Of a stretch of DNA of 51,800 nucleotides, positions 22,398 through 25,722 are shown piece after piece. The position numbers were made by a program, and so were the translations under genes. This DNA comes from an uncultured Pirellulaceae bacterium (GTDB taxonomy: Bacteria; Planctomycetota; Planctomycetia; Pirellulales; Pirellulaceae), in assembly GCA_937928215.1 (NCBI GenBank), contig CALFWL010000005.1, positions 1 through 51,800 of the forward strand, read 5' to 3'. The notes beneath the pieces are model-generated. The model was not told the DNA's origin. It was given only the letters and a program-made list of their open reading frames with translations, and did no database searches. The first letter of the stretch is position 1; every line of letters starts with the position of its first letter.

Positions 22398-22481
22398 GAC
22401 GGAATTCACGGGGACTTGATTCGAGCCGATGTCAGTAGACATTGGCGATTGTCCAAGCCGAACGATGACGACTCGATCAAC

Positions 22482-22901
22482 ATGAAACCGAACCAGTTTA
22501 AAGTTCTGCGGACGCTGCTCGGCATCATCGGCATCGGGCTGATGGTCGCTGCGTTCGCGGTCTTCCTTCCCATCAGCTGGATGGCAGCCGCACACCAATG
22601 GTTGGGCTTGGGAGAATTCCCTGACGGCCCGATCACCATTTATCTCGCTCGATCGACATCGCTGCTGTATGCCGTTCACGGATTTTTGATGCTGTACACG
22701 GCGATCCATCTTCACCAGTATCTGCCGCTGGCGAAAGTCTTCGGTTACGTGCACGTCGTGATTGGTCTCACCATGCTCGGCATCGACCTTACCACACCAA
22801 TGCCACTCTATTGGACCGCCGTCGAGGGCATTCCGATTTCGCTCACAGGAGCCGCATTGGTCTGGCTGGCGACAAAGACGAATCTCGAAGACATGGCTTA
22901 A
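22482..22901 (+). CDS. Small integral membrane protein, function unknown
   Basis: 139 residues from ATG 22482 (an ATT-type upstream extension to 22416 would add 22 polar residues and is less likely). Four hydrophobic helices are visible: LLGIIGIGLMVAAFAVFLPI, LLYAVHGFLMLYTAI, VFGYVHVVIGLTMLGIDL and GIPISLTGAALVWLA. A conserved-looking loop HQWLGLGEFPDGPITIYLAR follows the first helix. Proteins of this pattern are common in planctomycetes and lack a known role. The stop overlaps the stop of the convergent PEP-CTERM gene by four bases. Confidence 0.75.
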   Translation: MKPNQFKVLRTLLGIIGIGLMVAAFAVFLPISWMAAAHQWLGLGEFPDGPITIYLARSTSLLYAVHGFLMLYTAIHLHQYLPLAKVFGYVHVVIGLTMLGIDLTTPMPLYWTAVEGIPISLTGAALVWLATKTNLEDMA

Positions 22902-23542
22902 GCTTTGCGACGACGCAGGGCGCCTCCGGCCAACGAAGCAAAACCAAACAGCAGCACGGTCGATGGTTCAGGGATTGCGATAACGGGAAGAACTGGCTCG
23001 CCAGAGCCGAACACTTGCGCTCGGAAACCTAGGAACGCGCCGTCGGTCAGCTCGCCCGGAAGTGAGCCATCCGGATTTTCTGGGCCGCCGCTGATGCCAA
23101 AGGCAGAAAAACTCCATTCCACAATTCCGTTGTCCAATGTCCCGACAAAGAAGTTCCAAAATCGATCGTCATCATTGAAGATGGGGGTATCAGTATCTTC
23201 ACCAAAAGAAAGAGTGTTGATCCCCAGCCCCAAACTGCCACCAAAGTCGATCGTGTCGATCGCAAATGGGCTTGCGCTGGCGATTTCGAGCAAACCATCG
23301 GCCGCCGTCGTATTCGCGGCATCCCATTGATATCCAAAAGCATAGGAATCTCTCGGGCCGGTTGCAGAAACCGGGCCGCCTCCGAAATCCACGATAAAAT
23401 ATGACGTGTTACTGCCGTTTCCAAACGTGCCTTGAAGATCAAGGACGCCATTGTTCAGAATTACCTGGGCGTGCGACGGTTGAGCCGATACGCTGCCCAG
23501 AAACAGAATTGCACTAAACACCAAAGCCGTTGTTTTTTTCAT
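22898..23542 (-). CDS. PEP-CTERM exported protein, second gene of the riboswitch-headed pair
   Basis: 214 residues from ATG 23542, which begins the signal peptide MKKTTALVFSAILFLGSVSA; a TTG four codons upstream is less likely. The C-terminus is a classic PEP-CTERM sorting signal: IPEPSTVLLFGFASLAGG followed by ALRRRKA. Such proteins are exported, cleaved and attached by an exosortase. The body is Gly/Asp-rich beta sequence (VDFGGGPVSATGPRDS, NDDDRFWNFFVG) without Cys and without an enzyme motif. It begins 51 bases after the DUF1559 gene on the same strand and so is probably in the same transcript, under the cobalamin riboswitch. Ligand and role unknown. Confidence 0.87.
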   Translation of the reverse strand: MKKTTALVFSAILFLGSVSAQPSHAQVILNNGVLDLQGTFGNGSNTSYFIVDFGGGPVSATGPRDSYAFGYQWDAANTTAADGLLEIASASPFAIDTIDFGGSLGLGINTLSFGEDTDTPIFNDDDRFWNFFVGTLDNGIVEWSFSAFGISGGPENPDGSLPGELTDGAFLGFRAQVFGSGEPVLPVIAIPEPSTVLLFGFASLAGGALRRRKA

Positions 23543-23593
23543 TGGAAGTCTCAATCGTAGTTACTGAATAGTTGATTATGTTGGTGGAAAACA

Positions 23594-24451
23594 TCATTGA
23601 TCAATGATTTCGCCACCGTCTCGAGTCAATGTTGCGATCAGGATGTCTTGATCAATCGCTTCATCGAAGTAGGAAACATGACCATCGCAGAAAACGAGAT
23701 TCACGCCGCCCGGATGGTCACTGAACAGTTCATTATTTTGCGTTTCATTGATGCCGATATTAAAGCGCTGATCGAACAGGTTTTGTCCGTTGATCCATTC
23801 CGACTGAAATTGGCCATCACGTCCGGTACACTCGCCGACCAACGCGGTATTTGACAATCCGTCACGAATCTCTGCGGCTTTCACGGGAGTTTCATAAACC
23901 ATCACTCCGACGTGTTCGGGCAATGGTTCTGGCAGGTCAAATCCGACTCCAAACAACCCGCCGTAGTCAGTGAAGGCCAAGTTATCTCCCGGATCCCACT
24001 GACCATTGGCATTCCGGTCTCCGGTTGTCATGCCGGTTCTTTTGGTCGTCGTGGTTGACGGACAAAGGTAAACGGCCAGCACCGATCCACCTGCGTCCCG
24101 GTTCTCAATCGCATTAAATCGATGCTTAAAACTGATTTGATCGTGGATGCTTTGCTGTTCAATAAATGGCAACAAGGTGGCCGACCATGCCAATTGAACC
24201 CGCGGTGCCGGCAGACGGAAATCGCACTCGATGCAACCAGCAGGAAAGAACTGATGCGTCGCCTCGTGATTGGCCAACCCCAGCCCGATTTGACGCAGAT
24301 GATTTTGGCACGCCGCTCGCCTGGCGGCTTCTCGTACTTGCTGAATCGCGGGTAACAGCATACCGATCAGGATGCCGATGATCGCGATCACGACCAGCAA
24401 TTCCACCAAAGTGAATGCGCAGCGACAGGGTTTTCTGGCAAGCAGGTTCAT
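23594..24451 (-). CDS. DUF1559 protein with prepilin-type N-terminus, under a cobalamin riboswitch
   Basis: 285 residues from ATG 24451. After a short basic leader comes the prepilin cleavage/methylation motif [20 protein letters not shown], preceded by Ala-Cys residues, then the typical DUF1559 segment [20 protein letters not shown]. The C-terminus has the family signature [21 protein letters not shown]1559 proteins are the most expanded pseudopilin-like family of planctomycetes and are thought to be surface or fibre-forming; their function is unknown. The 5' leader is a complete cobalamin riboswitch (24574-24883), which makes B12-dependent expression likely. The PEP-CTERM gene follows 51 bases downstream. 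Confidence 0.92.
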
Positions 24452-24573
24452 TTCATTTTCACAAAATCGGAGCAGCCGGCTCACAGTCAAAACGTGCGCA
24501 ACGGTAGCCCAGTTGGTTGGTGTAATTCATCACCTCGCCCGTGTTCGTCCCTCGCAGAACAGCGGTCGACATC

Positions 24574-24883
24574 CAAAGCTGGCAGGTATTCTGACTGTTG
24601 ACTCAGGCTGAAGGCGAGATGAAAAAGAACGCACCGCAGACTGGAAACTCGAAAGTCCAACCTGACGATCCGGCTTATTTCATTCTGCCTCTCGCACTAT
24701 CACTGCGGCCTTCTCACCCTTCGCTGTTCGCTCGGGGCAATGGCATTCAGATTCGCAGCGACTTGGACCCTTTGTCGAAACGCGTTCAACGCAAGGTCCG
24801 TCAATTACAGCGGCGGGGCCGTCCGGGATTCTCACCCGATTCCCTCTAACCGATCGCGAACAGGCGATCGATCACCAGCTTTG
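24574..24883 (-). promoter_or_regulatory. Cobalamin (B12) riboswitch
   Basis: Read on the minus strand. The closing stem P1 is a perfect 9-bp match: CAAAGCTGG (24883-24875) with CCAGCTTTG (24582-24574). The conserved 5' core is at 24844-24825 (GGGAATCGGGTGAGAATCCC), followed by CCGCCGCTGTAA at 24816-24805, which matches the family's CCCGC-ACTGTAA element. The 3' B12 box, AGTCAGAATACCTGCC, lies at 24597-24582. At about 310 bases it is longer than the usual 200, with an enlarged peripheral domain. The expression platform lies in 24573-24452; GAGC-CGGCT-GCTC close to the start codon of the DUF1559 gene may sequester the translation start, and no strong terminator was found. B12 would be expected to lower expression. 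Confidence 0.92.
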
Positions 24884-25020
24884 TGGAATTCCGGATCATA
24901 GTCGACATTGAAATCCCGTCAAGCGACGAAGCCCGCTTTGCAGATAGCATTGGTTGAGGAAGAATGATTCCGCCTCCCTAATCCGTCATTGTGGTCTTCC
25001 ATCAACTCACTCGCCTGCCT

Positions 25021-25722
25021 ATGAATTTTCTGGTTACGAACGACGATGGTTGGGATGCTGTTGGAATCGAGCGACTGGCTGAGATCGCAGCCAAATTCGG
25101 CACTGTCACCGTCATCGCACCGGCGAAGCCGCAATCAGGAATCAGCCATCAGCTAACGCTTGACCGAGCGATGGATTTTGTCGCACGAAAGACGGGGTGG
25201 CATTCGCTCGATGGAACGCCTGCCGATTGCGTACGGTATGGGCTGCATCATCTGAACCAAACCTTCGACCTGGTTCTTTCCGGCATCAACCACGGAGCGA
25301 ACCTTGGCGTCGACGTGTTCACCTCCGGCACCGTTGCCGCAGCCCGAGAAGCAAACTTCCACGGCGTCAGTGCGGTCGCGTTCTCGCAGTATCGATCCAA
25401 CATGGCAGCGAGTGAATTCAATTGGGACCGGTCGGCTGACTGGAGCGCTTCCACGTTCGAACAATTGTTGAAGTCGGGCAGCGGTTTGGGAAGGATGTCA
25501 GATCCGACCTTGATCAACGTGAATCTACCCGATCCAGCATCTGAAATTTCTGCCGTTCCGGAAATGGTTGAGTGCCAGACGGATCTCAGCCCGTTGCCGA
25601 TCGAGTACCGAAAAACGGAAAGCCAAGTTCACTTTTCCGGTCGCTACCAGGATCGGCCGCGGGCTGTCGGCCAAGACATCGACATCTGCTTCGGCGGCCG
25701 AATTTCAATTAGCCACCTGTGA
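25021..25722 (+). CDS. surE: 5'/3'-nucleotidase SurE
   Basis: 233 residues. SurE is a metal-dependent nucleoside monophosphate phosphatase linked to stationary-phase survival. Motifs: NFLVTNDDGWDAVGI at the N-terminus with the metal-binding Asp pair, IAPAKPQSGISH with the conserved Ser, GTPADCVRYGL, then LVLSGINHGANLG with the metal-binding Asn, and TSGTVAAAREA. The ATG at 25021 starts right at the family N-terminus; the upstream ATG-less extension to 24991 is unlikely. It is divergent from the riboswitch transcript, so the 24884-25020 interval holds both promoters. Length is slightly below the usual 250. Confidence 0.95.
   Translation: MNFLVTNDDGWDAVGIERLAEIAAKFGTVTVIAPAKPQSGISHQLTLDRAMDFVARKTGWHSLDGTPADCVRYGLHHLNQTFDLVLSGINHGANLGVDVFTSGTVAAAREANFHGVSAVAFSQYRSNMAASEFNWDRSADWSASTFEQLLKSGSGLGRMSDPTLINVNLPDPASEISAVPEMVECQTDLSPLPIEYRKTESQVHFSGRYQDRPRAVGQDIDICFGGRISISHL

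Follow-up and report, generated by a model that had tools for sequence, protein, structure and literature searches.

A DUF1559/PEP-CTERM gene pair behind a cobalamin riboswitch in Planctomycetota: a predicted surface system for corrinoid scavenging

The gene pair and its leader

The window analyzed here (51,800 nucleotides) is the whole of contig 5 in the genome of an uncultured Pirellulaceae bacterium (G000; 4.15 Mb, 247 contigs, 92% complete). It carries, on one strand, a cobalamin riboswitch followed by two genes that encode a prepilin-like DUF1559 protein and a PEP-CTERM protein denoted P2 (Table 1). A cmscan search with RF00174 (gathering score 31.5 bits) identifies the aptamer at full length, with the core and P1, above the curated threshold (59.1 vs 31.5 bits), and no other RF00174 match occurs in the 4.15-Mb genome. 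The original prediction, made from the letters alone, had named a cobalamin riboswitch with a 9-bp P1 stem, core, element, and B12 box in this minus-strand leader. The covariance search bears this out, and all the landmarks are located by exact match: the P1 arms CAAAGCTGG (24883-24875) and CCAGCTTTG (24582-24574), GGGTGAGAATCCC (24837-24825), CGCTGTAA (24812-24805), and the B12 box (24596-24578).

Table 1. Features of the riboswitch-led cassette and its flank in the window
Feature	Position	Strand	Basis or remark
Promoter-like TTGACG-N16-TATGAT, sigma-70-like	24895..24922	-	consensus scan only
Cobalamin riboswitch aptamer	24564..24894	-	RF00174, 59.1 bits, E 3.4e-12, model 1-189
Hairpin TGTTC-TGCGAGGGAC-GAACA, directly past the aptamer	24542..24561	-	position checked
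DUF1559 (PF07596) prepilin-like protein, 285 aa	23594..24451	-	PF07596 166.3 bits, N_methyl 32.2 bits
P2, PEP-CTERM protein, 214 aa, second gene	22898..23542	-	PEP-CTERM matches, predicted fold
Membrane ORF, 161 aa, flank, outside the cassette	22416..22901	+	same-place marker in sister genomes

The aptamer is long (331 nt), partly because of an insertion of ~80 nt in its variable part (about 24610-24695) that is missing from the sister genome G067. The promoter-like match abuts the aptamer, stopping one base ahead of it, at a consensus frequency near chance (2 matches in the region vs 1.7 in shuffles). The hairpin on the other side of the aptamer is a possible expression platform: CTGCGNGGGACGA is present in five of the six same-genus genomes inspected (the window genome, G067, G100, G119, and G144) and absent from the G134 stretch, and, by eye, the stem letters on either side of it are complementary in four of these five but not clearly so in G067. 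Both the riboswitch and the hairpin 3' of the aptamer are retained among the same-genus genomes compared. No terminator-like site was found on the minus strand of 22700-25100. On the plus strand, the leader at 24502-24531 reads CGGTAGCCCAGTTGGTTGGTGTAATTCATC, which by eye resembles part of the 5' half of a tRNA; ARAGORN detects no tRNA in the window, and the core of this stretch is not found in the G067 stretch.

The product of the first gene consists of a PF07596 domain after a prepilin-type N terminus and contains the H-X9-DG motif; comparison by eye with the G067 homolog favors the ATG at 24451 over the TTG at 24490 as its putative start. The DUF1559 family is large, with 22 matches in the window's genome. 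P2 begins with a hydrophobic helix, a probable signal peptide, followed by a predicted transcobalamin-beta-like (SLBB/beta-grasp) domain (approximately residues 40-178) and a PEP-CTERM tail (residues 189-212). The tail comprises a PEP motif, a hydrophobic segment, and basic residues, and matches PF07589 (26.4 bits, threshold 20.7) and TIGR02595 (23.5, threshold 16); it is the only part recognized, the core of P2 having no match in Pfam, NCBIfam, or PDB sequences. These profile matches agree with the naming of the pair in the original prediction, whose interval contains the DUF1559 gene but leaves the PEP-CTERM gene (22898-23542) outside.

The genome encodes a B12-dependent MetH, whereas searches for CbiC, FecCD/BtuC, and the TonB Plug domain give no match in it, with the controls positive. 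The zero Plug matches agree, at the scale of the whole genome, with the earlier remark that the window contains no btuB-like gene. At 92% completeness, where absent B12 genes could sit in the missing 8% of the genome, the presence of MetH together with unmatched CbiC, FecCD, and Plug suggests that B12 is probably needed from outside and the known importers are probably lacking. Judging by this gene content, the bacterium is probably unable to make the corrin ring and requires B12 for MetH.

Genes behind cobalamin riboswitches

RF00174 is present in 123 of the 149 genomes of the family. The genes behind it were read in 61 loci, i.e., the window and 60 of the 150 listed places, hand-chosen from the genus first and then spread over score and genus; simple ORF calling in these loci misses some genes, e.g., the DUF1559 gene of L055, and one locus (L036) has no gene ahead of the contig end. 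A DUF1559 gene occupies one of the first three places at 29 of the 61 riboswitches, and DUF1559 makes up 29 of the 103 first two genes compared to 5 of the 281 remaining genes in these loci (Fisher 9e-14). Other first genes, named by motifs and home-made profiles, are presumably TonB receptor-like (13), class II ribonucleotide reductase (5), MetE (2), and CobQ (1). DUF1559 also heads riboswitch-led runs whose further genes, named by motifs, are presumably CobQ-like and, in several of the runs, CobO-like (L045, L047, L048, L050, L053, and L072). Many of the PEP-CTERM partners behind the riboswitches of the family contain the DUF4465 domain (PF14717). A third type of riboswitch-linked protein, with FAVFENGF / FIVFGNAFY-like motifs, is seen at L068, L070, L077, L071, L075, and L257, either single or, by eye, joined to a DUF4465 or a transcobalamin-beta-like domain; in L077, the FIVF-type protein that was scanned, Pfam recognizes nothing but the PEP-CTERM tail.

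The relatives of P2 were collected by whole-genome protein searches that are blind to riboswitches. A search started with the single P2 sequence over 397 genomes of the class yields 44 rows at E <= 0.01. Besides P2 itself, three of these cover the body of the protein at E < 1e-4 (G015, G235, and G306, from another genus and two other families), and in all three the gene is the second one after RF00174 and DUF1559. Most of the remaining rows are confined to the C-terminal region that includes the sorting tail; four cover the body weakly (G075, G011 twice, and G257), and the one of these that was checked (L145 in G011) has no RF00174. A profile (A1) built from P2, its G067 homolog, and the three relatives identifies 31 loci, distributed over 30 of the 396 genomes searched in the order, with RF00174 upstream on the same strand at 30 of the 31 (6 from the family riboswitch list, 2 more, 20 of the 20 fetched, and another 2). 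The remaining locus (G573) lies at a contig end, with just 607 bp upstream. The P2-type gene lies 0.95-1.8 kb from the riboswitch, with DUF1559 in between at 29 of the 30 loci; the exception is L206, which starts with a propeller-like domain instead. By eye, the propeller-like PEP-CTERM protein of L206 runs in one frame into the P2-type domain.

In the window's own family, the P2 type is found in 9 of the 149 genomes, with 9 of 9 loci behind listed riboswitches. A phylum search with a 27-member P2 profile over 392 genomes detects 21 loci besides that of the window, and at 16 of them RF00174 precedes the gene on the same strand; at the other five (L249, L251, L253, L254, and L255), RF00174 is not found at the gathering score. 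In this rest of the phylum, DUF1559 lies between the riboswitch and the P2-type gene in just 2 of the 16 riboswitch-linked loci and is missing from 14, so that the principle does not depend on DUF1559.

DUF4465 is encoded in 58 of the 149 family genomes, in 63 loci after clustering. At 45 of these loci, a listed riboswitch precedes the gene on the same strand within 7 kb, and RF00174 was identified at 15 of the remaining 18, which were fetched and checked by hand for strand and order, for a total of 60 of 63. Two of the other three (L105 and L111) are cut by contig ends; L107 (G111:C12:237893-245600), one of the 63, has no RF00174 within 7 kb despite ample upstream sequence.

Given the size of the DUF1559 family (22 members in this genome), chance neighbors are possible, and the pair could have ended up by accident behind the riboswitch of a lost gene. 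The original prediction had itself proposed, as a refutation, that the riboswitch usually controls some other gene that has been lost from this genome, together with a survey of planctomycete genomes for such pairs. The survey speaks for the prediction, and the comparative linkage contradicts the lost gene: hitch-hiking is hardly credible given the 30 of 31 P2-family loci in the order, the 60 of 63 DUF4465 loci, the enrichment of DUF1559 among the first two genes, and the separate clade formed by riboswitch-linked DUF1559 proteins with surface partners (see below).

Exchange of cassette types and the DUF1559 tree

Within the genus, the slot behind the riboswitch is occupied by the P2 type in G000 and G067, by DUF4465 in G100 and G119, and by a propeller-like protein in G134. 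The latter is an SGL-like PEP-CTERM protein behind a riboswitch and DUF1559 (L035:6071-7105; 26.5 bits, threshold 26.3) that recalls BtuG. In G100 and G119, the DUF1559 and DUF4465 genes adjoin the same downstream 161-aa gene that flanks the cassette in the window: a tblastn search with this ORF identifies counterparts in G067 (L032, 79%), G119 (L034, 51%), and G100 (L033, 49%), and no match in the G134 and G144 stretches. The upstream neighbors, SurE and an M10-like protease, have no match in the stretch of any sister genome, G067 included. Thus, with respect to the downstream flank, G000, G067, G100, and G119 look like carriers of different cassette types at the same chromosomal site.

By profile, P2 itself is not a relative of DUF4465; PF14717 has no match in P2 (up to E 1) or in the window genome, and this candidate kinship was ruled out. 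A home-made DUF4465 profile also matched the G067 homolog of P2 and the FIVF proteins, most likely because of the common PEP-CTERM tail, and these cross-labels were left out of the counts. None of the 9 P2-type genomes of the family contains DUF4465 (hypergeometric probability 0.010, kinship ignored).

A FastTree phylogeny was constructed for 100 DUF1559 sequences: from 109 matches, 3 shorter than 180 aa were dropped, then 9 of the 106 left (1 duplicate of the window gene, 2 duplicates from overlapping loci, 5 fragments, and 1 truncated CobQ-linked sequence), and three P2-linked sequences were added later. The tree contains a riboswitch-linked clade of 69 members (support 0.998) that takes in all 32 P2-type, 33 of 34 DUF4465-type, and 4 of 8 other riboswitch-linked DUF1559 proteins; all 21 background sequences (17 from the window's own genome and 4 from neighboring loci) and all 5 CobQ-linked ones fall outside. 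Within this clade, the 32 DUF1559 proteins with P2-type partners group together (support 0.969). In the tree without the three added sequences, the clade has 66 members (0.852) and the P2-type group 29 (0.99). Eight of the nine P2-type loci of the family are represented (all but that of G054), and all eight belong to the P2-type clade even though the family is mostly of the DUF4465 type, so that species kinship alone is insufficient to explain the split. A blastp search with the window DUF1559 protein gives 88% identity with G067 and 55% with the next best, G137, compared to 44-46% with G119 and G100 from the same genus and 39% with the best-scoring paralog from its own genome. An exchange of the PEP-CTERM gene alone within the genus was rejected, given that in the tree the DUF1559 type changes along with its partner; the two genes therefore appear to be exchanged together.

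Proteins of the PEP-CTERM and pilin-like kinds generally serve as parts of the surface and of cell structures. The pair could accordingly represent structural surface proteins that track B12 status without binding corrinoids, i.e., the B12-responsive envelope remodeling that the original prediction offered beside uptake, all the more so as corrinoid binding by P2 is itself predicted. No positive support for such remodeling was gained, and it appears improbable: the alternation of three PEP-CTERM domain types in one slot within one genus is unexpected for structural proteins, the fold predicted for P2 is that of a B12-binding domain (see below), and one of the alternating types is a shown B12-binding family. 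Specifically, B12 binding has been reported for eight divergent DUF4465 members, one of which, ‘Pan’, comes from a planctomycete, Mucisphaera calidilacus (PMC13398666).

Predicted fold of P2

A transcobalamin-like fold of P2 was guessed from the sequence pattern ahead of modeling. The AlphaFold2 model of P2, built with 26 relatives (pLDDT 85.4, pTM 0.77), includes strands 45-52 and 66-73, a helix (80-90), strands 93-99 and 106-113, and then 128-137, 140-145, and 170-176; it is consistent with a beta-grasp core into which a beta-hairpin is inserted past the helix, the insert pair being inferred. A Foldseek search with this model places the beta domain of human transcobalamin at the top, with a weak E-value (8.6e-3) and the probability of 1.00. 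VIA-align, which re-aligns Foldseek's own candidates only, aligns P2 with the beta domains of transcobalamin and intrinsic factor over 100-110 residues (Z 10.9-12.7) and with the bacterial structure 3u7z (Z 11.0), after which the next row falls to 5.5; fold families missing from such lists were not counted as evidence. The divergent relative L200 (22% identity to P2), modeled from the same set of 27 sequences (pLDDT 87.6, pTM 0.83), has a weak best E-value in Foldseek (4.9e-2), and its VIA-align rows are transcobalamin, intrinsic factor, haptocorrin, and 3u7z (Z 9.6-11.3; next row 6.4), with haptocorrin among the top rows for L200 but not for P2. The structural alignments of the two models cover 94-110 residues with rmsd 1.8-3.0. 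Thus, P2 and L200 are predicted to fold like the B12-binding beta domain found in transcobalamin and intrinsic factor. The beta domain of human transcobalamin, on its own, has been crystallized with cyanocobalamin (PMC5599065).

At the sequence level, kinship between P2 and transcobalamin is unsupported. DUF4430, the Pfam label for the transcobalamin-like domain (PMC4350170), has no match up to E 1 in a scan of 27 P2-family members, and transcobalamin does not appear up to E 10 in searches of PDB sequences with P2 profiles, the matches being dockerin tails or chance. The kinship of P2 is therefore one of predicted structure.

A common fold is no proof of B12 binding given that a variety of ligands has been proposed for SLBB domains (PMC1796856). 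The ligand of P2 might be cobalt, heme, or another compound rather than intact B12, with the gene serving cobalt or precursor supply within the B12 regulon; bacterial relatives have been found near cobalt transport genes (PMC1796856), and the title of 3u7z names it as a putative metal-binding protein. Still, a known B12-binding family stands in for P2 in sister species, and with CbiC unmatched in the genome, the cell would gain little from cobalt for corrin synthesis, so that such a ligand seems quite improbable.

Predicted function of the cassette

We consider it likely that the locus encodes a corrinoid scavenger that is anchored at the surface and controlled by the riboswitch, along with a pseudopilin that is inherited together with it, both binding and regulation being predicted. 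Of the functions originally proposed, a corrinoid surface or uptake system is the one supported by the riboswitch linkage in the order and the phylum, the predicted fold, and the presence of DUF4465 in the same slot. By analogy with the usual behavior of RF00174, low intracellular B12 would leave the transcript on; P2 would then be exported and, judging from the motif, anchored at the cell surface by its PEP-CTERM tail, where it may bind corrinoids via its single transcobalamin-beta-type SLBB domain. The partner-specific DUF1559 pseudopilin would sit in the inner membrane and periplasm and, as co-inheritance and clade structure suggest, most likely aids the assembly of P2 or passes cargo inward.

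In a bolder and rather unlikely version, the pair would be a self-sufficient, TonB-independent machine for corrinoid acquisition that is swapped as a unit with the DUF4465 version at the same site. An exosortase-anchored receptor of the transcobalamin-beta type and its cognate DUF1559 would then replace BtuB and BtuFCD, with DUF1559 acting as a pseudopilus-like conveyor or a periplasmic carrier; should this be the case, some DUF1559 proteins would be partner-specific helpers of surface receptors.

The scavenger proposed here has precedents. A transcobalamin-like SLBB clade, which takes in the beta domain of animal transcobalamin, intrinsic factor, and haptocorrin and is widely represented in planctomycetes, was predicted to function in B12 scavenging by Burroughs et al. 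(2007, PMC1796856), a paper in which the word riboswitch does not occur. P2 resembles this clade in the predicted fold of the whole domain, with the strand order beta-beta-alpha-two strands-three strands, and in being probably secreted and surface-anchored; it differs in the lack of a DUF4430 or other sequence match and of the alpha/alpha toroid, and in the possession of a PEP-CTERM anchor, a cobalamin riboswitch, and a DUF1559 partner. In Bacteroides, BtuG, BtuH, BtuJ (DUF4465), and BtuK1 are surface B12-binding lipoproteins, and the uptake loci of these binders are largely riboswitch-controlled (PMC12751083, PMC8941943, and PMC13398666). DUF4465 fills the slot of P2 in sister genomes, but P2 is not DUF4465 by profile, a PEP-CTERM tail takes the place of the lipoprotein anchor, and the cassette includes neither BtuB nor BtuFCD. 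The window DUF1559 protein has the PF07596, N_methyl, and H-X9-DG features of the prepilin-like DUF1559 (SBP_bac_10) family at large but is placed in a distinct riboswitch-linked clade, the subdivision of which matches the partner type. Given the 2007 work and the Bacteroides binders, the transcobalamin-like fold and the scavenging idea are already known. By title and abstract, none of the matches listed from the open-licence PMC literature ties DUF1559 or PEP-CTERM to cobalamin riboswitches; as far as the literature was searched, the association with riboswitches, the predicted anchoring by a PEP-CTERM tail, the interchange with DUF4465, and the partner specificity of DUF1559 are new.

These observations provide a testable function for a phylum-wide PEP-CTERM family whose core has no Pfam match and for one clade of the uncharacterized DUF1559 proteins. 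The frequency of DUF1559 among the first three genes behind the riboswitches implies that current annotation may hide much of the B12 regulon, and the question arises of how B12 enters cells in which neither BtuB nor BtuC is detected. Riboswitch-driven B12 scavenging would widen from the lipoproteins of Bacteroides to PEP-CTERM proteins, and the same fold as that of the B12 carriers of animals would serve scavenging in bacteria. With the binding domain predicted from structural models, the cassette suggests a little-known bacterial route for catching scarce vitamin B12.
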